A stretch of DNA of 32,037 nt from Acidobacteriota bacterium (GTDB taxonomy: Bacteria > Acidobacteriota > Blastocatellia > HR10 > JACQTD01): NCBI GenBank assembly GCA_016210985.1, contig JACQTD010000140.1:1-32037 (forward strand), written 5' to 3'. A program made the translations under genes and the position numbers. Below, one piece after another: positions 1,995 through 18,345 of the stretch (the first letter of the stretch is position 1; each line of letters starts with the position of its first letter). The notes under the pieces are model-generated. The model made no database searches and had not been told where the DNA came from. It saw only the letters and a list, made by a program, of their open reading frames with translations.

Positions 1995-3110
1995 ATGATG
2001 ACCCGAGGTCAGCGTCGATTCCGTTCGGGATATCGCCCGCCGTTGCCGATCGCGCCGAGGGTCGCTTGTTCGCTTCTCGTCCTCCTGTTCCTCGGACCCG
2101 TCGCGATCCTGGGGGCGCAGGAAGGCGTGCAACAGGGCCGTGGAGGCGGAAGCGCCCCCGATACGGTTTTCACGATTCGCGGGCGGATTTACATGCCCTC
2201 GGGAGCGCCTGCGGATGAACAGCTGAGGGTGACCTTGAAGACCTTCAGCCAGGGCATCGCCCAGGAACTCTACAGCGATTCGGTGGGTAATTTTGAATTC
2301 AAAAACATTCCGTCGAACAGTTACGAGCTGGTCGTCTGGGGGACCGACCGGTTCGAGACCACCACGGAGCGAGTCGAGGTCTACGGCCGGATGGGGCGGA
2401 TCGTACCGCAGAACATATTCCTGGTGCCGAAGGAGAAGGAGCGTAAGCCACGGAACGCGGGATCGGTAGTATCCGTCGGCGAGCTCAGAGCGAAGATTCC
2501 ACGCGATGCCGAACGGAGTTACCAGCGAGGCACAAAACTCGTCAAAGAGAAACGCTACGATGAATCGATCGCTTTCTTCCGGCAGGCGATTACGGTATTT
2601 CCGGAGTTCTTTCAGGCCCTGAACGACCTGGGCGTTCAGTACGTGCGCCTGAAAAGGTTCGACGAGGCCTTGGAAGTGCTGCATCGCGCCATCGCCTTAG
2701 CGCCTAAAGCGCCGCAGCCCTGGATCAATGTCGGACATGCGATGATCCAGCGGGGTACGCCGGAGGAGGCCTTGGTCCCGCTCGGTCAAGCCGTTGAACT
2801 CGATTCGTCGATCTGGCTGACGCATCTGCTCCTCGGCATAGTTCATTACCGGGCCGGCGACTATCTATCTGCTCAGCAGGAGTATGAGAAGGCGCTGGTG
2901 CTCGGCGAGATGCCTCAGGTGGCTGTAGCGCACCTGCACATCGCCAACATTCACATCAGGCAGCGGGACTTCACCCGGGCGATCAGAGACTGCGAGCGCT
3001 ATCTGAAGTCCGCTCCCGATGGCCTGGATGCCCCGGAGGCACTGGCGAAGGTGAACCTCATGCGACAGACTATGACCGGTGAGACGATAGAGATCTCCGA
3101 CCCGGAGTGA
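1995..3110 (+). CDS. TPR-repeat protein with N-terminal carboxypeptidase-regulatory-like domain, exported
   Basis: Signal-like N-terminus, IRGRIYMPSGAPADEQLRVTLKT domain, then tandem TPRs (ALNDLGVQYVRLKRFDEALEVLHRAIALAPKAP). Confidence 0.8.
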   Translation: MMTRGQRRFRSGYRPPLPIAPRVACSLLVLLFLGPVAILGAQEGVQQGRGGGSAPDTVFTIRGRIYMPSGAPADEQLRVTLKTFSQGIAQELYSDSVGNFEFKNIPSNSYELVVWGTDRFETTTERVEVYGRMGRIVPQNIFLVPKEKERKPRNAGSVVSVGELRAKIPRDAERSYQRGTKLVKEKRYDESIAFFRQAITVFPEFFQALNDLGVQYVRLKRFDEALEVLHRAIALAPKAPQPWINVGHAMIQRGTPEEALVPLGQAVELDSSIWLTHLLLGIVHYRAGDYLSAQQEYEKALVLGEMPQVAVAHLHIANIHIRQRDFTRAIRDCERYLKSAPDGLDAPEALAKVNLMRQTMTGETIEISDPE

Positions 3111-3141
3111 AGGGAAGGAAGCGGGGAAACGGGGAAACGAA

Positions 3142-3726
3142 TCACCCCAAGTCATTTTGCGCCCGGGTGGCCTCCGCTCGCTGTTTCAGCGCCTGACGAA
3201 TTCGCTCGCGCATCTCCGCGATCATTGGATCATCGGGGCTGATCAGCGAAAGCTGGCCGATATAAAAAAGCGCGTTGTCATTCTCCGGTGCGACCAGATC
3301 ACCCCGCCGGTAGGCCTCCTGCGCTTGAAGCTTGAGTTTCGCCACAACTTCAGACTTCTCATAGGTGATTCCGTTGGCGATATTGGGGTCGAGTCCGAAA
3401 GAAAAGTCGTTAAAGGTTTTAGGTGCCGAGCGGTCAGCGTAGATCTTGCGTTCGATGGCCTGATAGCCCGGCTTGGCGAGTGCGACGGTATGTTCGCCTT
3501 CCGGTACAGCCGTAGTCAGCGGAGTGAACCCGATCGACTGCCCGTCGAGGAACGCCTCGGCGCCACCCGGGTCAGTTGCAAGATTGATGGCCACCAGCTT
3601 GGGCGCCCGCAGAATAAAGACCCCGATGGTTGCTCCGGCCAGGAATACCACGGTGCCCAGCGCCAACGCCGTCCATACGAAATTGCGCGGGAACTCAAGC
3701 ATTTTCCTGAAGCGAGCGAAATTCAT
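3142..3726 (-). CDS. PEGA domain-containing membrane protein
   Basis: One N-terminal TM helix; INLATDPGGAEAFLDGQSIGFTPLTTAVPEGEHTVALAKPGYQ is a PEGA motif. Confidence 0.82.
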   Translation of the reverse strand: MNFARFRKMLEFPRNFVWTALALGTVVFLAGATIGVFILRAPKLVAINLATDPGGAEAFLDGQSIGFTPLTTAVPEGEHTVALAKPGYQAIERKIYADRSAPKTFNDFSFGLDPNIANGITYEKSEVVAKLKLQAQEAYRRGDLVAPENDNALFYIGQLSLISPDDPMIAEMRERIRQALKQRAEATRAQNDLG

Positions 3727-3921
3727 TTTGAATCATCCGTTACGTCCGACCCGATACCGCGACTCCCCGGCTGACCGTAAGGACTTCTCGACCTCATTGC
3801 CGGTCTTTCCACCCCATGGTTCGACTACGGATTAAGCCAATATACTCCATGCCTGGACCCCCGAACAAGCCGTAATCCCTCAAACCTGGGGCCCGCCGTC
3901 GCGAAGGTCCGGTGGCCGAAT

Positions 3922-4584
3922 CTAGAAAGCCGCCTCTTCGAGTAGTAGCGATACGGCCTCCTTGAGTTCTTCGGCATCGGTTCGCGGGGTGAAGCCGACC
4001 ATGTGCTTCCTGAGCCTGCCGTCGCGGCCGAAAATGAGCGTTTGCGGGATCGACTGCCGCCCCGGTCCGATATAGGTGCCAAAGAGCTCATTCGTGGCAT
4101 AGCCGATCGGATAATTGATCTTCATCTGATTGACAAAGCGTTTGACCGTTTCGCCTTCCTGGTCGGGTCTCTCGATCGTCAGGCCGACGACTTCAAGTCC
4201 CCGGTCCCGGTGCGTCCCCACGAGTTCCTTGAGTACCGGAATCTCCTCGCGGCACGGCCCGCACCAAGTGGCCCAGAAATCGAGGACAAGCACCTTTCCC
4301 CGATAATCCGACAGCTTGAGCGGGGAGCCGTCAAGCGTTTGGGTGACCAGTTCCGGCGCCGGTCGCCTGGCGCCAGACGATCCAGGAAGGGCATCCACGG
4401 GGGCGCTGAGGTCGGCACTTGCGCTCAGGGGAGATTCCTCAGGCCTGGACTGCCAATAAAGCACCGCGACAAAGGCTAGAAGTGTCGCCGCTGCGATGAC
4501 CACGCCCACCTTCCCGGCGTTCGACATCCTGGGCCCGGCTACCGCTTTCCGCTTCGCTTTCCCCATGCTTTCCCTCCGGATCAA
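3922..4584 (-). CDS. TlpA/ResA-family thioredoxin-like protein
   Basis: [19 protein letters not shown] active site with N-terminal membrane anchor. Confidence 0.92.
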
Positions 4585-4838
4585 ACCCTGGTCCGTCCTG
4601 AATCTGGATCTGGTCGGCGAGCCGTTCCCTCGCGCGTATCGTCCCCCGCTGGCTGGAACTCTGCCTCCCCCACGGGCGTGGATGTCGATGGAGCCGGCTC
4701 ACGGCCCACGGAGTAGCTCTCATCGGCCCAGTGCCCGAGGTCGATCAACTTACACCGCTCCGAACAGAACGGCCGCATGGGATTATCCTCCCACCGGACC
4801 TCGGTCTTGCAAATGGGGCACCTGACCATCATCACCAT
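4581..4838 (-). CDS. yacG: DNA gyrase inhibitor YacG-like zinc-binding protein
   Basis: [38 protein letters not shown]; 4-bp overlap with downstream tlpA-like gene. Confidence 0.88.
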
Positions 4839-4924
4839 GCGGGATGATAGACGATCGGGGCGCAGTTTTGAATACCGTCCCAGTGTTGTAGCGATCCGGC
4901 GCCGTGTACTAAGATCGAGTTGCT

Positions 4925-5818
4925 ATGTTTAAACCGAAAGCCATCCTCATGCCTGTTGATTTGAACGCGGAGTCCCACGCGGCGCTGAAGTATGCCGCCG
5001 CGCTCGCCCGCCATTATGGGGCGCGTGTGGTCGTCCAGAATGTCCAGGATGCCGAGCTGCCCCCCAACCTGATGTCCCTTCCTGAGCACCTGATCTCGGG
5101 GCGCGAGTCGGAGTGGCTCCGCGTGCTCAAGCAGCAAATGACGACGAGGTGTTCGGACGAGCAGCTTCGCGGTCTGCGCGTCGACGCTATTTTTTCGGGC
5201 GGCGTCCCGCAGGAAGAGATCCTTAAGGCGACCCGCCAGCAGGGATGCGATCTGATTGTCATGGAAGCGACGGCCCGGATCAGAACGCGGAGCGAGCACA
5301 TCGGCTCCACGGCCGAGGCAGTGCTCGCGGCTTCCGATGTGCCGGTTCTGCTGGTTCGTAGTGTGCAACGCCATTTTGTGTATCAGACGCACGGGGGACC
5401 CGAAATTGCACTGAATCGCATCGTGCTTGCCACCGCCTTCGAGGAGAAGGATCAGCATGCCCGCATGATGGCCATCGATCTCGCCGGCCAGTTTTCCTCA
5501 AAGCTCTCAGTGGTGACGGTGATGGAACAGATCAGCCTGCTCCGCACGCTGCTGCCGGGAACCGCCGTCAAGTATGAAGAAACGTTTCGCGAGAATGCGG
5601 AGAGCGCGTTCCGTGCGCTCGAAGCCCAGGCTCCCGGACTCAAGATCGAACGAATCATTCGTGACGGCGCGGCTTATAGAGAGATCGTCCACTTCAGCGC
5701 CGAGACGGAGGCGGACCTGCTGGTGATCGGCGCCTCCGCGAAAGGGTCCTGGATGCTGGGATCCAACGCCGAGCGCGTGGCCCGGCTTGCGCCTTGCCCC
5801 ATCCTCGTCGTTGGATAA
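4925..5818 (+). CDS. Universal stress protein, tandem UspA domains
   Basis: Two Usp folds, C-terminal ADLLVIGASAKGSWMLGSNAERVARLAPCPILVVG. Confidence 0.9.
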   Translation: MFKPKAILMPVDLNAESHAALKYAAALARHYGARVVVQNVQDAELPPNLMSLPEHLISGRESEWLRVLKQQMTTRCSDEQLRGLRVDAIFSGGVPQEEILKATRQQGCDLIVMEATARIRTRSEHIGSTAEAVLAASDVPVLLVRSVQRHFVYQTHGGPEIALNRIVLATAFEEKDQHARMMAIDLAGQFSSKLSVVTVMEQISLLRTLLPGTAVKYEETFRENAESAFRALEAQAPGLKIERIIRDGAAYREIVHFSAETEADLLVIGASAKGSWMLGSNAERVARLAPCPILVVG

Positions 5819-5826
5819 TCGGATTC

Positions 5827-6321
5827 ATGCGGATACTCCTCGCCATCGATGACTCCACCTTCTCCTGGGTGGCCGTACGGTCGGTGGCGGGACGCCCTTG
5901 GCCCGCGGGGAGTGAGATCCGCATCTTCCATGCTATCGAGTTGCCGCCGGTCTTCAGTTTTACCGGGACAGCCTGGCCGGATCCGCCGGTGGATCTCTCG
6001 GCCCTGAGCGAAGCGGAACAGGCCCGGGGTAAACAGCTCCTGGAGAGGGCGGCTCAGGAACTGAGCGTTTCCGGATGTGCCGTGACGACCCGTCTGGTGG
6101 AGGGGAGCGCGCGGACCATGATTCTCGAGGCAGTCCGGGAATGGCCGGCCGATCTCGTGGTACTGGGCTCCCATGGGACAAAAGGGCTGACCAGTCTATT
6201 GCTGGGTAGCGTCTCCCAGACCATTCTGAGCCATGTCCCTTGCTCGGTTGAAATCATCAGGACATCTGCGGAGGGTCGGACGCCGCCGTCCGGGCGCACC
6301 GACGCGCCGGGGCCTCCATAA
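5827..6321 (+). CDS. Universal stress protein, single UspA domain
   Basis: MRILLAIDDSTFSWVAV...ADLVVLGSHGTKGLTSLLLGSVSQTILSHVPCSVEII; start at 5827 rather than 5794. Confidence 0.9.
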   Translation: MRILLAIDDSTFSWVAVRSVAGRPWPAGSEIRIFHAIELPPVFSFTGTAWPDPPVDLSALSEAEQARGKQLLERAAQELSVSGCAVTTRLVEGSARTMILEAVREWPADLVVLGSHGTKGLTSLLLGSVSQTILSHVPCSVEIIRTSAEGRTPPSGRTDAPGPP

Positions 6322-6329
6322 TTTCCTTT

Positions 6330-7469
6330 GTGAGCAAATTGCAGCAGACGTTTCGCCTGGGAAAAATAAAGGGAATTCCGATCGGGGTCCATTTCACCTG
6401 GGGTATCGCTTTCGTGTTGATCACGATGTCGCTGATCGGGCAGTTCGGTGAACAGCACCCGGGCTGGTCTCCGGTAATCCGTTCGGCCATCGGACTCGTC
6501 ACCAGCCTGCTCTTTTTCACCAGTGTCATCCTCCACGAGCTCGCGCACAGCGCGGTGGCGCTGTCGCGAGGCATTCCGGTAAAATCGATCACCCTGTTTG
6601 TGTTCGGCGGAATCTCCGAGGTGACGCGCGAGGCGAGCACGGCGCTCAGCGAATTCCTCATCGCCGTGGTCGGACCGCTCGCGAGCCTGGCGATCGCCGG
6701 CGGTTTCGCTTTGATGGCCAGGTCCTTTCCGGCCGAGTGGACCGTGGCCGTGGCGCCGTGCAAGTGGCTCGCCACCGTCAATTTCTGGCTCGCCCTCTTC
6801 AACCTGATTCCGGGGTTTCCGCTCGACGGGGGGCGCGTCTTCCGATCGATCCTATGGGCGTTCAAACGCGATTACGAAAAGGCCACCCGGATCTCCACCA
6901 CGATCGGCAAGACGATCGCCTACGGGTTCATTTTTCTTGGCGCCTGGATCACCTTCGGCACCAACGACGGCCTGGTCAGCGGCTTGTGGATTGTCTTCAT
7001 CGGTTGGTTTCTGCTCAACGCCGCCCAACAGAACGTGGTGCAACTCGACCTTCGGAATGCCCTCAACGGCATCACCGCCGGGGATGTCATGTCCCGGGAA
7101 TGCCACACCGTTCCCCGGTACCTTTCACTGCAGGATTTCGTGGACGACTATCTGTTGAAGACAGGACGACGCTGTTACGTGGTCACCGATGACCATAGGG
7201 TGTTGGGTATCATTACTCCCCGCGAAGTCTCTGCCGTACCCCGCCAGGATTGGGGCCACGTGTCGATCCATGCGGCCATGACTCCCCTGGAGCGGTTAAA
7301 GTGGATCAGCCCGCAGGAGCCGGCCTCGCGAGTGCTTGAACGCATGGATGCCGAAAATGTCAACCAGTTGCTCGTGATGGAAGACGGAAGACTCCTGGGC
7401 CTCGTCGCCCGGGACGGGTTGCTCAGCCGCATTCAGACTTTTCTGACATTTCAGGGTAAGTCGGGTTAG
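6330..7469 (+). CDS. Site-2 protease family (M50) membrane metalloprotease with C-terminal CBS domains
   Basis: SVILHELAHSAVAL (HExxH), NLIPGFPLDGGRVFRS, two CBS-like segments; GTG start. Confidence 0.9.
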   Translation: MSKLQQTFRLGKIKGIPIGVHFTWGIAFVLITMSLIGQFGEQHPGWSPVIRSAIGLVTSLLFFTSVILHELAHSAVALSRGIPVKSITLFVFGGISEVTREASTALSEFLIAVVGPLASLAIAGGFALMARSFPAEWTVAVAPCKWLATVNFWLALFNLIPGFPLDGGRVFRSILWAFKRDYEKATRISTTIGKTIAYGFIFLGAWITFGTNDGLVSGLWIVFIGWFLLNAAQQNVVQLDLRNALNGITAGDVMSRECHTVPRYLSLQDFVDDYLLKTGRRCYVVTDDHRVLGIITPREVSAVPRQDWGHVSIHAAMTPLERLKWISPQEPASRVLERMDAENVNQLLVMEDGRLLGLVARDGLLSRIQTFLTFQGKSG

Positions 7470-7517
7470 CTTCCTTCACTCCTCCGAACCTCCAGCAAAA
7501 TCGAGGAATCGACGACT

Positions 7518-10057
7518 ATGCGAGAACTGACACGAGGAATCATCGTCATGCTGGTCTCCTGCAATCTGGTGTTTGGGGCACAGGCTCCGGCCCCTAAGGA
7601 GTCCCAGAAGAGCGAGGCGGCGGCGCCATTCAAGCCTGAGCAAACGGATGAGACCAAGAAGGCCGAACCGCCCAAGGACAAACCCTTCGCCGAAATCGTG
7701 AAGGATGCCCAGGAGATCAAGGGCCTGTTCACCCTCCATCGAACCGAGGAGAAGGTTTATCTCGAAATCCTTCCCGATCAACTCGAGCAGACCTATCTGC
7801 TCTCGCTGACCACCGACTCTGGAATAGGTGAACGAGGCTTCTTTGCCGCTGACATGACCGCCCAGGCGCCGATTGTTTTCCACAAGCTGGGAAAGAACAT
7901 TCAGGTGCGCTTGAGGAATACCCGGTTCACGGCCGAACCGGATACGCCGATCGAGCGGGCGGTATCGCGGTCGTTCAGCGATTCGGTGCTCGGCATCGCC
8001 AAGATCGAGAGCCTGCCGCATCCCGACCGTAAGAGTGTGCTGATCGATTTGGGAACGATTCTGCTCAGCGATCTTCCGATGCTCGGTTATGGACTGGAGG
8101 CGACCTTCCGTATCTCTTACCGATTTGATCCCAAGAACAGCGTCTTTGGCGCCGTCAAGGCGTTTCCCCGGAACGTGGAATTGGAGACGGTGGCCCACTA
8201 TGCGACTGACCGGCCGCCGCTACCTCCGCTCCTGCCGCCCGGGGCACCAGTTCCAGCGCTGCCGGCTCCCCCGCGGAATCTTCCGGACGTCCGCAGCATG
8301 ATTTTTCATTTCCGTTACAGCCTCTCCGGTCTGCCCGACAGCGGTTACCGGCCGCGGCTGGCGGATGATCGCGTCGGCCATTTCTTTGACCAGGTGGAGG
8401 ATTACACCGACGATCGGACCTATAGCACGTCTAAGCGGTACATCAACCGATGGCGCCTCGAGAAGCAGGATCCCTCCTCCGCCCTCTCGCGTCCCAAACA
8501 GCCGATCGTCTTCTGGTTGGAGAATACGATTCCGGTGGAATACCGCAACTCGGTCAGGGAAGGCATACTCATGTGGAACAAGGCGTTTGAGCGGATCGGT
8601 TTCAGGGATGCGATTGAAGTGAAACAACAGCCTGACGATGCCGACTGGGATTCCGCTGACGTCCGCTACAACACGATACGATGGTTCGCAGGCTATCCCG
8701 ACCCCGGGTTTGCCCAAGGTCCCTCCCGCACGAATCCGATGACGGGTGAGATCTATGACGCCGATATCCGATTCGCTGAATCGATGACCCGGTTCATGCG
8801 GCGCGAGGCCAGCGAGCAGATCGCTCCGGTGGCCGCGGCCTGGGAGAACAGCACGCCGTCTCCGTTTGTCAGCCCCTGGAGCCGGAACCGTGTATTCGCG
8901 GCGTGCGATTACGCTCAAGGCGCCGTGCTCGAAGCGGCGTTTGTTTCGGATCTCCTCCTCGCCCGCGGGATGGACCCGCAGGGGCCGGAGGCTGAGAGTT
9001 TCATCAAGGAGTTCCTGCGCGAGATCGCCGCGCACGAAGTCGGACATACGCTCGGGCTTCGCCACAACTTCAGGGCAAGCACGATCCACACGTTTGAACA
9101 GTTGCAGGATACTGCGATTACGGCCCGGGACGGTTTGACCGGATCGGTCATGGACTACATCCCGACGAATATTGCGGCCAAGGGCGAGAAACAAGGGGAA
9201 TATCACCAGACGACCCTGGGTCCATACGACTACTGGGCCATCGCGTGAGGCTGGCGCAGGAGGTCTGGGCCAACATGGAAGCGAAGCTCCAGCGCCCCGG
9301 GGAGGGTTACCAGGTGCTGAGGCGGAGCTTCAACGGCGCCATGGGCCAATTCGGAGGCATGATGATCCTGGCCTCGAAATACATCGGCGGCGTATATAAG
9401 TACCGCGATCACGTCGGCGATCCCGGCAACCGCCTGCCCATCGAGCCGGTGCCGGCGCGGGAACAGAAGGAAGCACTGGGGTTGTTGACAAAAAACCTGT
9501 TCTCGCCGAATGCGTTTCAATTCTCCCCTCGCCTGCTCAGCAAACTTTCGGCCGAACGGTATCCCGATTTCACGAATCCGGCCTTTCTTCAGCGGCGTTA
9601 CGATGTGCCGATCCATCAGGCTGTGCTCAACCTGCAGCGAGCCGTGCTTGATCGCGTCTACCATCCAACCGTGCTCGGCAGGATTCTCGACAACGAACTG
9701 ATGGTAGCCTCCCCGGCCGACGCACTCTCGATGGGCCTGTTGTTCAATTCGATTCAGGAGGCGGTCTGGGCCGAAGTTAAGAACCCGGGAGCGTCGATGA
9801 TGATCAACAGTTACCGCCGATCCCTCCAACGCGAGCACCTGAGGAAGGTCATCGCCATGGTGCTTCGCGACGCGGCCGTGCCGGAGGATGCCCGGACCCT
9901 GGCGAGGCAGACGCTGGTTTCGCTTCGAGGCCAATTGCAGGGTGCACTTGCGAGACCGGGATTGAAGTCGACGGCCGAAGCCCGGGCCCATTTGTCGGAG
10001 AGTCTGGCGAGGGTGGACGAAGCGCTGAAGGCGAACGCGCAAAGAACCGCTTTTTGA
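7518..10057 (+). pseudogene. Zinc-dependent metalloprotease (DUF5117/DUF5118-type) split into two ORFs (7518-9248 and 9245-10057)
   Basis: N-part has HEVGHTLGLRHNF and SVMDYIPTN Met-turn and ends LGPYDYWAIA-stop; C-part resumes RLAQEVWANMEAKLQRPGEGYQVLRRSF in another frame. Confidence 0.75.
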
Positions 10058-10077: not shown

Positions 10078-11700
10078 TCAGCCGCCGGGATTCCGGTTGA
10101 ACTTCAAGTAAGGGAGCCGAACGCCGTTGATCAAAATGCGGTCGGCCCTTATTTCCACCGGGGCTTCGAACCCTCGCGTGCCGGCCGCGGTCACCACGTC
10201 GTCCTGCTCGACGCCGTCGCCGCTGATCCCGAGGCCGCCGACCAGTCTGCCATTTCGATACAGCGGCGCGCTCCCGGGAAAGAAGACGATGCCGCTCCGG
10301 TTCCTGCCCTGGCCGCTCTGCTGGGAGCCTTGTGAACACGGTGTCGCCGTGTCGGGCAGATAGAGGGAAGCAAAAAACGGACCCCAGAACTGCCGGTCGT
10401 TCGATCCCGAACCGGGGCCGATCCCCGGCGGAAACAGCGGCTGGGAACCAAAGCCGATGGATCGGTTGGTCATGGCCGTGCCCATCGGAACGCCGGGAAG
10501 ATCCGCCGCCGTGCGCTCACTCCCGCTGAGGAAAACGACATTGCGCGCTTTCGAGACCGCCACATCGATGCTAAAGACCGTGCTGTCCGGCATACGATAG
10601 AGCCCGAGAACATTCCCGGCGAGGTCGCCCACCGCGATCACCATTCGGGTGCGGCTTCCCTCCGGCAGGCGGATGGCGGCGCGGGTCCGGTCGGCCTCGT
10701 CGATGGCATGTTGAATGATCCCGCTGACTTCGGCCGCGCTGATCTCCGGGCTTCCGCTCGGTCCGACGAGCCATCCCTCCGGGGCAGTGCCCCCGTGTCG
10801 CGGTGAGACCATCCAGCTGCCGCTCACCTCGACACCTGCAGTCCCTGGACAGCGAAAAGCGTCCGGTACCGGCGGGATGATCACGCCGCCGATCCGGGTC
10901 AGGGGCAGCCGGATTCCCTCCAGGAAAATCACACCCGGCGCCGGGAGCGGGAGCAATGCACCTATCCCCGGGCAGGCCGCGGTGAACGACGCCAATTCAT
11001 TTCGCCCACCCGAAGCGCCGGCGACACCGATTCCTCCGGCCACACGGCCAGCCTTGTAGATCGGCATGCCGCCGCCGTTGACCGAGGCGTGATCGCTGTC
11101 TGCCACATCAGCCTTGCCGGTCGTGATGCCGAGGCCGGGGGTGGTCCCATCGATGGAGCGGGAGACCGGGACCTCCTGCCCAGGAAGGTACCGCACCGTG
11201 ACCCCATCGACCAAATCACATCCTCGATTCGTATTCTCGATACCATAAAGGGCGCCGTTGGCGGTATTGCGGATGCCCGGCGGAAAATGAATGCCGCTGA
11301 TGAAGCGAACCGTTCTGGACGACAAAGGCGCCTGATCGTTGCTGAAGAAAGCGCCGGTTCGAGCGAGAGACACAGCGAGTTCAGCCGTGTCCACTATCGC
11401 GCCGAAATTCCCAATCGCCCGGTCGGGCGCGCTTGCCACACGCAAGATTCCCAGGATAGCTCCCGCGCGATCCGTGACGGCCACCACGACCGGTTCGATC
11501 GCCGCATTTGCAGCGGCCATGATCAATTCTTCGACTTCCGAAGCGGTCAAACGCGGAGGCTCAGACGCCCGCTTCATGCGACCCCCGCCGGCGGGTGTGG
11601 ACAGGGCCAGGAGCGCCAGCAGGAGCATGATCGTGCGGGAAAGCCTTCCACGGCTATCCGGCGCAGGATGGAGGCGGGTCAATCTGATCTCTGGCATCAT
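10078..11700 (-). CDS. Secreted protein with two GlcG/HbpS-like (DUF336) domains
   Basis: Two copies of the domain: LTASEVEELIMAAANAA...VVVAVTDRAGAILGILR and ISAAEVSGIIQHAIDEAD...MVIAVGDLAGNVLGLYR; start at MMPEIRL because the upstream extension is a repeat array. Confidence 0.75.
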   Translation of the reverse strand: MMPEIRLTRLHPAPDSRGRLSRTIMLLLALLALSTPAGGGRMKRASEPPRLTASEVEELIMAAANAAIEPVVVAVTDRAGAILGILRVASAPDRAIGNFGAIVDTAELAVSLARTGAFFSNDQAPLSSRTVRFISGIHFPPGIRNTANGALYGIENTNRGCDLVDGVTVRYLPGQEVPVSRSIDGTTPGLGITTGKADVADSDHASVNGGGMPIYKAGRVAGGIGVAGASGGRNELASFTAACPGIGALLPLPAPGVIFLEGIRLPLTRIGGVIIPPVPDAFRCPGTAGVEVSGSWMVSPRHGGTAPEGWLVGPSGSPEISAAEVSGIIQHAIDEADRTRAAIRLPEGSRTRMVIAVGDLAGNVLGLYRMPDSTVFSIDVAVSKARNVVFLSGSERTAADLPGVPMGTAMTNRSIGFGSQPLFPPGIGPGSGSNDRQFWGPFFASLYLPDTATPCSQGSQQSGQGRNRSGIVFFPGSAPLYRNGRLVGGLGISGDGVEQDDVVTAAGTRGFEAPVEIRADRILINGVRLPYLKFNRNPGG

Positions 11701-11800
11701 TCGAAATCGATCCTCGTCGTCGGTATGGATAACATAGCCCTCGAGCCTTGCCAGGTAAAGCGAGAGAAGGGTCAAGAACCCGGCGAGTTGATCCCCGGGA

Positions 11801-11900
11801 ACGCCAATCTCCTGATTGGCGTCGTCCAGGTTTGAGACCACGCCAATCAGGAGATTGGCGTCGTCCAGGTTTGAGACCACGCCAATCAGGAGATTGGCGT
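11801..11900. repeat. Three 22-bp palindromic units at exact 39-bp period
   Basis: ACGCCAAT-CTCCTG-ATTGGCGT (11801-11822), ACGCCAAT-CAGGAG-ATTGGCGT (11840-11861 and 11879-11900), separated by identical 17-bp CGTCCAGGTTTGAGACC. Confidence 0.95.
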
Positions 11901-12010
11901 TCCCAGGGCCGGCCTGTCGAACCGTTGACTTGATCCGGAGGATGTGATGTTATCCCGGCCGGTTCAGATCATCTCACCTTTTCGTGGACGAGGCTTCCGC
12001 GGGTGCTTCC

Positions 12011-14398
12011 ATGGCTAGGGCGGATGGCTTACACAAGCCCAGAACGGTAGCGGGAGTGATGTTCACAGTGGCCTTGTTCCATGGGCCGGTCCTCGTCGGC
12101 GCGCACGAACAAATTGACAGCGGCGCCGGAGCCTATTCAGATCGCCATCGTGTGATTGCAGTCTCGATGCCTGCTGTTCCGGGTCAGCGGATACCGGGTC
12201 GGCGTGCAGAGACCAAAGCCGCAATCCAGGGCCAGGTAAGAGATGCATCTGGACGACCCATTCCCGGCGCGAGCGTCCGGCTGATCTATGCCCAGACTCC
12301 CCGCACGCTCGAGTTGACGGCGGACGGAGATGGCGTCTTCCGCGCACGCGGCCTGGAACCGGGTGAGTGTCAGGTCGTCATCGAGATGGCCGGCTACGAA
12401 CCGAAACATCGTACCGGGCTCGTGCTCAACGCGGGTCAGACGGTCTCGCTCGAGATTGAAATGCTATCCACGACCGGGGGCAATCCCGCTGAGCCCTCGG
12501 GGAGGGAAGGAGAGCGGCTCATTACCCGGAATCGCTTGGGTGACCTCGGGGATCATGCCGAATCCTCCACAGCGAGATCGATGGAGGGCATGCATCCGGC
12601 CCTCCGGCCGCGGCCGGAAGAGGTTGCCGAGGCGCCGATTCGTAGCATTGATGGGATCGACCTAAATCGGGTTGATCCGCCCCTGGGGTATTCTGGCCCG
12701 CTTCGACCTCCCCCCCCGGCGCCTACGCACGGCCGATTTGAGGTCTACGAGGATCGCTGGAGAATCGGATTTCCAGATTGGAACCGGGGAGGGCCCGGCG
12801 AGGCGCCCTACGTCCGGGGGCGCTGGTATGATCCCTTTCATCAAAACATGCTCAAAGGCGATTACCCGGTGATCGGTCAACACATCTTCCTGAGTTTGAC
12901 GGCGGCAAGCGACACGCTGGCGGAGCCGAGGCGGCTCTATGTCCCGAGCGGCGCGAGCGCATTCCAGCCCGGCCGCACTCCGTTTTTTGGGCGCGGTGAG
13001 CAGTTTCTTCTCACTCAGAATTTCTTGGTCTCCGTCGACCTGTTCCGCGGCGACGCCGGATTCCGGCCGCGTGATTGGTCGATTCGAATTACACCTGTCT
13101 TCAATATCAATTTCCTGCAGACCCGGGAGAACGGACTCGTGAACATCGATGTGCGGAAGGGAACGCTCCGGACTGACGGACAGGTGGCCCTCCAGGAGCT
13201 CTTCGGCGAGGTGAAGCTCTTCGATGTTGGATCCCATTTCGATTTTGTTTCCGTGCGGGCGGGTATTCAGCCGTTCGTCAGCGATTTCCGCGGCTTCATT
13301 TTCGTCGATGAGCAGCCGGGCATCCGGTTCTTCGGAAACTTCGGCTCCAACCGAAATCAGTGGAATGCGGCGATCTTCACGCTTCTGGAAAAAGACACCA
13401 ACAGCGTTCTAAACACCCTCTTCGAGCCCCGGCATCAATATGTGGCGGTCGCGAATTTCTCCCGGCAGGATTTCCTGGCGAAGGGATACACGATTCAAGC
13501 CAGCCTTCATTACAGCGATGATCATGCCGGAAGATCGGACGAGGAGGGCGGGCTTCATTTTGACACCAACGGCTTCCTGGTTCGCCCGGCGGCGGCAGGG
13601 GCTTTCACGCCCCATAACATCAAGGTGGGATATCTCGGGATCGCGGGCGAGGGACACATCGGCCGTCTCAATGTCAGTCATGCGTTTTATCAAGCGCTCG
13701 GCCGTGACGATCTCAATCCGATCGCCGGGCGCGGGGTTCACATTAACGCCCAGATGGCGGCCGCCGAGTTTTCATACGAACGCGACTGGCTCTCCTTCAA
13801 GGGCTCGTTCTTCTTCTCCTCCGGTGATTCCGACCCCACGGACGGGACGGCTCGAGGGTTCGATGCGATCCTGGATAACCCGAATTTCGCCGGCGGCAGC
13901 GGCTTCAGTTTTTCCAACCGGCCGCTCACCCGGGACAATCTGTTTCAGCCGAACATTCCCGGAGGCGGCTTCGGGTTCTGGAACCGCCAGGGGATTGCAT
14001 TGGCGGGGACGAGTGTCGGGCTCGTCCACCGGCAGAGCTTGCTTCCAAGCCTGCGGAGCAACAAAGACGAGGGACAGGCCAGTTTCGTCAATCCAGGCCT
14101 GTTTCTCTACAACCTGGGTGTCGACGCGGCGATCACGCCGAAGATGAAAGGGTCCTTCAACATAAATTATCTGCAATTCCACCGTACAGAACCGCTGGAG
14201 CTCCTGCTCTTTCAGCCAGGTTTGCGGCGGAGCATCGGGTTAGATTACAGCCTGGGGTTCCAATACCGTCCCTTTCTGAACGATCAATGCATCATCACCG
14301 CCGGCGCCGCCGGACTGACCCCGGGGGACGGGCTGAAGCGGATTTATACATCGAAAACTCTATATTCGACGTTTGTGGGCGTTCGTTTGATGTTCTAA
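12011..14398 (+). CDS. Outer-membrane beta-barrel (porin-like) protein with N-terminal carboxypeptidase-regulatory-like domain
   Basis: Signal-like N-terminus; [25 protein letters not shown] domain; long stretch of alternating-hydrophobicity strands ending in [12 protein letters not shown] (C-terminal Phe). Confidence 0.75.
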
Positions 14399-14460
14399 TA
14401 GGAGGGCGGGGAACCCCCTCGGAGGGAGCGCGACACGTCGTCGACGGGAATTCCCAAGCA

Positions 14461-17400
14461 ATGAGCGCCGTAGAACGCAGGTCCTTGATCAAGGCAGGAT
14501 CGCTCATCCTCCTGATCGCGATCCTCATATTGGGCTCGGCGCTATCGGACGAAGATCGCGCGCGGGCCACCTTGCGCCACGCGCCCGCAGGCTCAGTTGT
14601 GGCCGGATCCCTTCACCCTGAGGCCCCCACCGGCCAGCGGTCGTACGATCAGATCTCCGATCCGCAACTCCTCAGCCAGACCGAGGCGGAGGCGGAGCGC
14701 AAGAGCGCCGGCTGCGTCACATGTCATACACAGGTCGACTCACCCACGATGCACACGTCCGAGGCGGTGCGGCTAGGCTGCGCTGATTGTCATGGCGGCG
14801 CGTTCGAGGTCAGCCTGCCCGCGGGCGTGACCAGCGATACGCCGCGCTATGAGGAAATCAAGCGCAAATCACACGTTCATCCCCGGTTGAAAGGCTTCTG
14901 GCCGAAATCGGCCAATCCGGTCCGGTCCTACGCGAAGCTCAACCAGGAGAGCGCAGCGTACATACAGTTCATCAATCCGGGCGATCTCAGGGTGGTCGAT
15001 CAAACCTGCGGGCGTTGTCACGCGCGGGAGACGGATCTGGTCAAAAATAGCATGATGACCCATGGCGCTATGTTGTGGGGGGCCGCGCTCTACAATAACG
15101 GTGCGTTTCCACTCAAGAATGCGCGCTTCGGCGAGAGCTATGACCATCTCGGCCGCCCGCAACAGTTGCGGACCGTTCCTCCACCTACTCCCGAAGAGAC
15201 CCGTCAGAAGGGGATTCTGGCCTTCCTTGACCCGCTGCCACGGTGGGAAATATCCCAGCCCGGCAATATCCTCAGGGTCTTCGAACGCGGCGAAGATAAA
15301 TTGAGCTTCCGCGGCCTGGGAACCCAAAACAGGACCGATCCGACCTTTCTCAGCGTCCAAAAGACGCGCCTGCTGGACCCGAACTTGTCGTTCCTGGGCA
15401 CCAATGATCATCCGGGAGACTACCGTTCGAGCGGTTGTTCGGCCTGCCATGTCCTTTACGCCAATGACCGGTTCCCGGCGCATTCAGGGCCGGCGGCGGA
15501 GTTCGGTCACCTGGGTTTCAGCCATTCGAGTGATCCGACCATACCGAAAAATGAGTCGGGCCATCCCATCAAGCATCGGCTCACCCGATCGATACCCTCC
15601 AGCCAGTGCATCGTTTGTCATATCCATCCCGGCACTTCCTTTGCCAATGCCTATCTCGGGTATATGTGGTGGGACAACGAGACCGACGGCGAGTTCATGT
15701 ATCCGCGGCAGGCCAAGCGTCTGAGCGCGGAGGAGGAACGCGCCCGGCTCGAAGCCAATCCGGAATCGGCCTCGCTCAAGGGCCTGTGGTCGGAACCCGG
15801 GTTTCTGGCGAGCGTGAGCGAATTGAATCCGGAACTGAAGCACAGCCAATTCGCGGACTTCCACGGTCATGGTTGGATATTTCGTGCCATCTTTAAACAC
15901 GACCGAAAGGGAAATTTCCTGGATGATGCCGGTTGGGTCGTCTCTCCGGTGACGAGCCAAAAGCTTCAGGAAGCTGTCCGGCTGCCGACACCGGAGGAAT
16001 TGCTGAACGGCCGGCCGGGAACTCCGGTTCACTTGAAGGATATCCACCTCGAACGGGGCATGCATTGCATCGACTGTCACTTCGAACAGGATGTTCATGG
16101 CAATGGCAAGCTCTATGGCGAAGTGCGCAATGCAATCGAGATCGATTGTATCGACTGCCATGGGACCATCGATCGGCGGCCGACCTTGAAGACGTCGGGT
16201 CCCGCCGCCGGCCCCAGCGATCTCACCTCGCGGCGAACCCCATTCGGGCAGCGGCGATTCGAGTGGCGTGGCGATCGTCTGTTTCAGCGCTCGATGGTGA
16301 CACCCGACCTCGAGTGGGAGATCACGCAGACGCTCGACACGATCACGCCCGGAAATCCGCATTACAGTGAACGGGCGAGGCTCGCCAAGACGATGCGGCG
16401 CGACGGCCGGACCTGGGGGGATGTCCCGGCGGATCCGCGGACCCTGGCCCACCAGAATGACAACATGTCCTGCTATGCCTGCCACTCTTCGTGGATGACC
16501 AGTTGCTTCGGCTGCCACCTTCCGATGAAGGCGAACGCCAAGCGACCGATGCTCCACAATGAAGGCGAGGTTTCGCGCAATTGGACTTCATACAACTACC
16601 AGGTTCTCCGCGACGATGTCTTCATGCTGGGAAGAGACAGCACGGTTAAGGGCCACAGGATTGCGCCCGTCCGCTCCTCGAGCGCGGTCCTGGTGGGGTC
16701 CCAGAATGCCAACCGGGAATGGATCTACTCCCAGCAACAGACCATTTCGTCCGAGGGGTACAGCGGACAGGCCTTCAATCCCCACTTTCCCCACACCGTC
16801 CGCGGCAAGGAGACGAAGACCTGCACCGACTGCCATGTGTCTTCGAAGGACGACAACAACGCCTGGATGGCGCAAATGCTTCTCCAGGGCACGAATTTCG
16901 TCAATTTTCTCGGCCGGTTTGTTTATGTAGCCAAAGGGGAGCACGGGTTCGAATCGGTGGTCGTCACCGAGGCCGACGAGCCCCAGGCCGTCATCGGCAG
17001 CCACCTTCACCGGCTCGCCTATCCCGATAGGTTCGAGAAGCACCGGGCGGGTGGGGACCGCCTGCGCGAGGCCTATCACCATCCGGGCCGTGACATCCTG
17101 AGGCTGCCCGGCCGTAAGCACGAAGTGCTCAATCTGCAATTGCGGGGTGAGTACCTTTACGCCGCCACCGGAGAGGGGGGTCTGAGGGTCTATGACGTGG
17201 CGCAGATCGATAACAAGGGCATCTCTGAGCGGATGACAACTTCGCCCGTTTCACCCCTCGGCCAGCGGCTCCATGTGAAGACCCGGTACGCAACCGCGGT
17301 AGCGCCGCCGACGACCCTGGGTGTGGATCCTACCCGCCGGCGGTTACCGGAAAACGAAGAGCAGCCCATTCATCCGCTTTACGGATATCTCTATGTCACG

Positions 17401-18345
17401 GACAAGTACGAGGGTCTCATTCTCGTAAGCGCGGCAACGCTCCTGGACGGCGATCCGACGAACAACTTCCTGAATCGTGCGGTGACTTTCAACCCCGGAG
17501 GCGCGCTCAACGGCGCCGTCAACCTCGCCGTAGCCGGGCATTATGTCTACGTGGCCTGCGACCGGGGAATCGTCGTGGTGAACATCGATGATCCGTTGCG
17601 TCCCCAAATCGTCGCCGAAGTCGGAGCGCCCTACGTCAACAGACCAAGGGTCCTCGCGATCCAGTTTCGTTACGGATTTGTTTGTGACACCGAAGGGGTA
17701 AAAGTGATCGATGTCACCATCCCCGAGCAGACCCGCGCCGTGCCAGCCGCATACGTGCCGCTGGAGGACGCAAGGGACATCTATGTGGCGCGAACTTACG
17801 CGTATGTTGCCGGGGGGAGGCAGGGACTCGTGATCGTTGATGTCGAGCAACCCGCCTCGCCCCGCATAGACCAGATCTTTCACGCTGATGGCGCGCTGGA
17901 TGATGCCACCGGTGTGAAAGTCGGCATGACCAATGCCAGCCTCTTTGCTTATGTTGCCGACGGGCACAACGGGCTTCGTGTCATTCAACTGGCGTCCCCT
18001 GAGACACCCGGCATCGCGGGCTTCAGCCCGCGTCCCGATCCCCGCCTGATTGCGACTTACCACACCCACGGTGAAGCGCTGGCCCTCTCGAAGGGGCTGG
18101 ACCGCGACCGGGCGGTCGACGAGAGCGGTCATCAAGTGGCCGTATTCGGGCGAAGGGGTGCCAGACCTTTCAACTTGGAAGAGCAGCGGCGAATGTACTT
18201 GAAGGACGGTAAGCTTTACTCCGTTACCGATCTCCCTCCCGGCCCGCCCCAGACATCAATGAAACCTCTGGTCACATGGCTGCTTCTAGGTGGAAGCATC
18301 GGGCTTCCCCTGACGTACATCGCATTTCGCCGGCGCAGACGCTAG
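14461..18345 (+). CDS. Decaheme c-type cytochrome with C-terminal LVIVD-type beta-propeller repeats and C-terminal TM helix
   Basis: Ten CXXCH motifs (CVTCH, CADCH, CGRCH, CSACH, CIVCH, CIDCH x2, CYACH, CFGCH, CTDCH), then repeats such as [25 protein letters not shown] and [22 protein letters not shown]; ends [26 protein letters not shown]. Confidence 0.88.

Follow-up and report, generated by a model that had tools for sequence, protein, structure and literature searches.

We describe a pair of adjacent genes, encoding an outer-membrane beta-barrel and a decaheme cytochrome with a C-terminal LVIVD beta-propeller, that has been retained as a pair in four or more bacterial phyla. This distribution points to a widespread and undescribed form of electron movement at or through the outer membrane. 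We put at roughly 50% the probability that the pair is a porin-cytochrome type, not previously described, that conducts electrons through the outer membrane. The stretch of DNA that was analysed, here called the window, has 32,037 nucleotides and constitutes the entire contig C84 of a MAG of 3.85 Mb (79% complete), most likely from the class Blastocatellia (Acidobacteriota).

The barrel gene (12011..14398, plus strand; 795 aa) was assigned from its open reading frame, an AlphaFold model, Foldseek matches and conservation within the family. Its reading frame has an ATG at 12011 and a stop at 14398; an alternative GTG start at 11984 would add nine amino acids. The cytochrome gene (14458..18345, plus strand; 1,295 aa) was assigned from its open reading frame, the CXXCH count and Pfam. 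A gap of 59 bases separates the barrel stop from the cytochrome ATG, slightly less than the 62 bp given in the first-pass annotation, whose description of a barrel gene followed by a 1,295-aa cytochrome with ten CXXCH motifs and LVIVD repeats is borne out by the open reading frames, the motif count and the Pfam match (E 5.6e-16). A second in-frame ATG for the cytochrome lies upstream at 14287; the start at 14458 is preferred because it agrees better with homologue N-termini and with where the signal segment lies. A scan for promoters and terminators gave no signal above chance.

The cytochrome contains exactly ten CXXCH motifs, at residues 86, 108, 184, 327, 384, 537, 564, 672, 683 and 789, against 0.015 expected from its composition and at most one in any of 2,000 shuffles. 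The distantly ExtM-like heme part covers residues 86–793 (14713..16836, plus strand), and the LVIVD repeats at residues 1014–1197 (17497..18048, plus strand) belong to a C-terminal beta-propeller that is present in the predicted structure; the same region also matches other LVIVD proteins. The model of residues 66–1265 has a pLDDT of 84.8 and a pTM of 0.89. Its structure matches come mostly from the propeller, with cytochrome cd1 among them, and in a sequence search of solved structures the similarities were limited to heme motifs, those of NrfA-type and eight-heme nitrite reductases. Virtually all of the 101 homologues retain the ten heme motifs, with CX4CH as the third in 54. Further conserved histidines in these homologues include 11 at 99–100% and two at about 95%, and, judging from the alignment, the invariant histidines appear numerous enough for bis-His ligation of all ten hemes.

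The barrel was modelled from 75 sequences with a mean pLDDT of 78.9 and most strands above 90. Counting the elements listed for the model gives 18 transmembrane strands in residues 292–794 (12884..14392, plus strand), and the protein ends in FVGVRLMF, a C-terminus typical for outer-membrane barrels. The top solved-structure match in Foldseek is AlgE (E 3.8e-16), with OprD-type and other porins next, and the predicted topology is thus that of the porin-like barrel originally proposed. A sequence search of solved structures with the barrel gave nothing useful. Strands 13 and 14 are joined by a long conserved loop (residues 604–696; 13820..14098, plus strand), predicted to be extracellular by strand count with the N-terminus taken as periplasmic. 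Within the family, conservation is high in the barrel and in this 93-residue loop, and low in the N-terminal part, which is exchangeable. In the window this part holds a CarboxypepD_reg domain (12224..12463, plus strand; PF13620, E 4.5e-19), so that the N-terminal domain reported by the first-pass annotation is indeed there; we take it to be a structural beta-sandwich, not the regulatory-like domain it had been called.

In seven Blastocatellia (L029–L034 and L037), the N-terminal domain of the barrel is replaced by a four-heme class III cytochrome domain, encoded with the barrel in a single reading frame. All seven fall in one clade of the cytochrome tree, a pattern consistent with one fusion event. 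We regard this fusion as a strong argument for a role of this barrel in electron transfer.

Relatives were collected from one genome per species, and the best 80 of 170 confirmed cytochrome relatives were retained; nearly all of these align over about residues 70–1260. Acidobacteriota, Planctomycetota, Verrucomicrobiota and Zixibacteria all contain full-length relatives with approximately 52–69% identity, whose grouping in the tree mostly follows phylum. Cultured hosts include Granulicella aggregans, Rubripirellula obstinata, Roseiconus nitratireducens and Planctomycetes bacterium Pan216. In the phylum of the window the cytochrome is widespread, not universal: the full-length protein was found in a minority of 149 sampled genomes.

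Of 91 loci in which 1.5 kb or more of upstream DNA is available, 82 have the barrel gene immediately 5' of the cytochrome gene in the same orientation. The other nine belong to Planctomycetota, and each of these genomes encodes the barrel elsewhere or in another arrangement. Among 57 relatives, 38 have both genes, 19 have neither and none has one alone, strong matches being counted by eye from two match lists; in one of the 38, genome G051, the genes are fragments. Conservation of the gene neighbourhood, named at the outset as a check on the pair, is therefore confirmed. Barrel and cytochrome distances are correlated (r = 0.80), as expected from co-inheritance and by itself no proof of interaction. 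Genome G030 has a second barrel-cytochrome pair (L144, 9294-15897, plus strand); upstream of it, at 3231-8917 on the minus strand, lie a divergent 817-aa gene in the position of the HbpS-like gene and genes for a 13-heme and a 9-heme cytochrome.

The window cytochrome has an N-terminal hydrophobic signal segment (14479..14550, plus strand; hydropathy scan), as do nearly all homologues. Its C-terminus, according to hydropathy and the homologue alignment, consists of a hydrophobic segment and an RRRRR tail (18262..18342, plus strand); such a transmembrane segment with a basic tail is found in most Blastocatellia homologues and is absent elsewhere. By the positive-inside rule, this tail suggests that the Blastocatellia cytochromes may be anchored in the inner membrane facing the periplasm, unless they are sorted onward, and it is the chief reason for caution about a role at the surface in the lineage of the window. 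A function of the tail as a sorting signal is unsupported, with no exosortase found in the window's order, and a rhombosortase search gave no match above the cut-off. Only the cytochromes of a Phycisphaerae clade have a lipobox-like cysteine right behind the signal, as in lipoproteins.

Divergently from the barrel gene, the window encodes an HbpS-like protein of haem-binding type (10078..11880, minus strand; PF03928, E 1.8e-19). Such a gene is found in 53 of the 82 loci that extend 4 kb or more upstream, mostly in divergent orientation. Further away lies a gene for a cytochrome c554-type protein (22905..24299, minus strand; Pfam), which may be a periplasmic partner of the pair. It is overlapped by a Si-specific NAD(P) transhydrogenase-type gene on the same strand (21482-24299 for the two), and both families also occur near the pair in some Terriglobia loci. 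Upstream, a Met-zincin gene (DUF5118/DUF5117/DUF4953; 7518-10057, plus strand) is divided between two overlapping ORFs (7518-9248 and 9245-10057), which leave part of the DUF4953 profile uncovered; a frameshift, an assembly error or a natural split would account for this.

Recurring neighbours of the pair are cNMP-binding/4Fe-4S proteins (23 loci), c554-type cytochromes (21), 10-heme c7-type cytochromes (16) and pairs of 8- and 9-heme cytochromes (10). In L031 the four-heme barrel and the decaheme-LVIVD cytochrome are followed by 4-heme, 8-heme and 9-heme cytochromes, a cNMP/4Fe-4S protein and an FHA/C7/4Fe-4S protein, and in L112 the barrel, cytochrome, c554, cNMP/4Fe-4S and c7 genes are all on the same strand. 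Proteins similar to NuoEF and NuoG are encoded near the pair in some Terriglobia loci. Together, these neighbours resemble an electron chain leading from the cytoplasm to the envelope; Pirellulaceae often lack them, and many of their loci comprise the HbpS-like, barrel and cytochrome genes alone. In L031 and L034, single chains combine an FHA domain, c7-type hemes and 4Fe-4S clusters, and adjoin cNMP-binding/4Fe-4S proteins.

No canonical Mtr or Pcc genes adjoin the pair, as had been noted before, and this holds for the whole contig. Elsewhere in the MAG, contig C192 (L138) carries two MtrAB-like clusters, with 10-heme MtrA-like proteins adjoining MtrB_PioB barrels, and an MtrC/MtrF-like cytochrome; the genes of these types are at 2888-5050, 5047-6000 and 10895-12949 on the minus strand and at 13656-14675 and 14600-16933 on the plus strand. 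A further MtrC/F-like gene lies on contig C177 (L140). Provided that these contigs are binned correctly, the window organism also has canonical-type conduits.

As a conduit, the pair would operate with the barrel in the outer membrane and the decaheme-propeller protein exported and docked on or into it, the propeller perhaps serving in docking. The heme chain would link periplasmic carriers, such as c554-type and c3/c7-type multihemes and in the end Fe-S modules of the inner membrane, to a partner or substrate on the cell surface, passing electrons between them. The step from a conserved redox pair to a transmembrane conduit is one that we infer, as are hemes reaching through the barrel, the electron direction and the substrate. 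Since the MAG encodes terminal oxidases, the pair could equally well oxidise an extracellular donor or reduce an acceptor. The best evidence for a conduit is the variant with fused hemes, for which a mere solute pore would have no evident use. A conduit is also favoured by the linkage in 82 of 91 loci, the presence of the barrel in the nine unlinked genomes and the 38/19/0 pattern, by the conserved ten heme motifs and histidines, by the barrel fold, and by the electron-chain-like neighbours and the lipoprotein-like Phycisphaerae cytochrome. It is disfavoured by the AlgE-like 18-strand barrel, which is smaller than MtrB, by the tail of the Blastocatellia cytochromes together with the missing sorting enzyme in the window's order, by the many loci in which no extracellular partner cytochrome adjoins the pair, and by some hosts being aerobes not known for extracellular electron transfer. 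The possible conduit of the first-pass annotation has thus gained a conserved pair and a four-heme fusion in one clade, with the transmembrane step resting, as before, on inference.

The main rival, which we consider unlikely but still the most serious, is that the AlgE-like barrel is a selective channel for the substrate or product of a periplasmic decaheme oxidoreductase. The substrate would then be small, for example an oxyanion or an organic acid, and no electrons would cross the outer membrane. The barrel has the fold of solute and polymer channels, one relative (L103) even exceeding the alginate-export Pfam cut-off, and the inner-membrane-like tail in Blastocatellia would suit a periplasmic enzyme. 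An enzymatic role is also in line with the weak similarity of the heme motifs to nitrite reductases, the presence of cytochrome cd1 among the propeller matches, and the distant ExtM similarity combined with the selenite/tellurite precedent of ExtI (PMC5877670). On the other hand, it is hard to see what the heme domain of the fused barrels would do in a solute pore, and the invariant histidines would, on sequence grounds, suffice for ten bis-His hemes.

It is far less probable that the two proteins have separate jobs, with the cytochrome acting elsewhere and the barrel, an ordinary porin or exporter, merely co-transcribed with it. In favour of this, divergent HbpS-like genes often lie beside the pair too, and in some Planctomycetota the pair is unlinked. 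However, both genes are retained even when unlinked, the phyletic pattern among relatives is all-or-none, and in one clade the barrel itself carries a heme domain.

Returning to the conduit, we tentatively propose, at somewhat less than even odds, a separate trans-outer-membrane class in which an AlgE-type barrel of 18 strands works with a decaheme-propeller cytochrome, and of which the heme-fused barrels are a variant. Such a class would be widespread in Acidobacteriota, Planctomycetota and Verrucomicrobiota, and its hosts would include cultured and apparently aerobic species that are not known to respire extracellularly. If the pair does conduct electrons across the outer membrane, extracellular electron exchange would be far commoner in soil and aquatic bacteria than the Mtr, Pcc and Ext families imply. 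Published porin searches with MtrB, OmbB, ExtB/E and ExtI models (e.g. PMC7399161) would probably miss this barrel. The presence of the pair in cultured G. aggregans, R. obstinata and R. nitratireducens makes the proposal directly testable.

Three elements have been described for outer-membrane electron conduits: a multiheme periplasmic c-type cytochrome, an integral beta-barrel and a redox lipoprotein (PMC6148476). The window pair has the barrel, with its 18-strand model and AlgE/OprD matches, and a cytochrome with ten hemes and a signal segment, ambiguous between periplasm and surface; no lipoprotein cytochrome adjoins the pair in the window. MtrCAB/MtoAB/PioAB and the Geobacter Pcc system (OmbB-OmaB-OmcB) likewise have a barrel gene adjoining a multiheme cytochrome gene. 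In contrast to the window pair, MtrB has 26 strands instead of 18 and MtrA has approximately 320 aa instead of the 1,295 of the decaheme-propeller protein. The MtrB/PioB family (PF11854) was not matched by the window barrel at 0.01 or by ten relatives at 0.05.

The closest structural match, AlgE/Alginate_exp, also has 18 strands, whereas it shares only about 13% identity with the window barrel, which is paired with a cytochrome and in one clade fused to hemes. The window barrel is below the curated cut-off of Alginate_exp (PF13372), which one of ten barrel relatives passes (L103, 34.9 bits), and no alginate genes were seen beside it. Cyc2-type cytochrome-porins have one heme, whereas the seven fused relatives have four class III hemes, an AlgE-like 18-strand barrel and a separate decaheme partner. 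The heme domain is N-terminal to the barrel in both (PMC5566968).

The Geobacter extHIJKLMNOPQS cluster, with ExtI and ExtM, likewise encodes an outer-membrane porin together with multiheme cytochromes. ExtI is required for selenite/tellurite reduction and not for Fe(III) citrate reduction (PMC5877670). The heme part of the window cytochrome matches the ExtM model with 94 bits (E 6.7e-27), and relatives score 65–92 bits; membership was rejected, the score being far under the NF040943 equivalog cut-off of 800 bits. ExtM is described as a 12-heme protein of 68 kDa, which leaves no room for a propeller such as that of the window cytochrome. An 11-heme LVIVD protein from a relative of the same order (L143, 4445-7348, minus strand), with no adjoining barrel, matches ExtM with 206 bits along most of its length, and may link ExtM with the decaheme-LVIVD family.

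Predicted non-Mtr porin-cytochrome clusters include PCC3 and PCC4 (PMC5566968) and the Verrucomicrobia porin-MHC (PMC5615132); PCC4 is found in Planctomycetes too and contains Fe-S redox proteins (PMC5566968). Their cytochromes are described as 8-heme (porin-MHC), 4/5/10-heme (PCC4) or very large (PCC3), with no mention of an LVIVD propeller, and it is by these published descriptions, not by sequences, that the window pair is set apart from them. In the literature on LVIVD cytochromes, on alginate-export barrels with multihemes and on porin-cytochromes of these phyla, which included few subscription journals, the pair is undescribed. Porin-cytochrome pairs are known as a kind, with Mtr, Pcc, Ext, PCC3, PCC4 and porin-MHC as its examples; the pair described here differs from MtrB and ExtM by the sequence tests and from the others in their described architecture.
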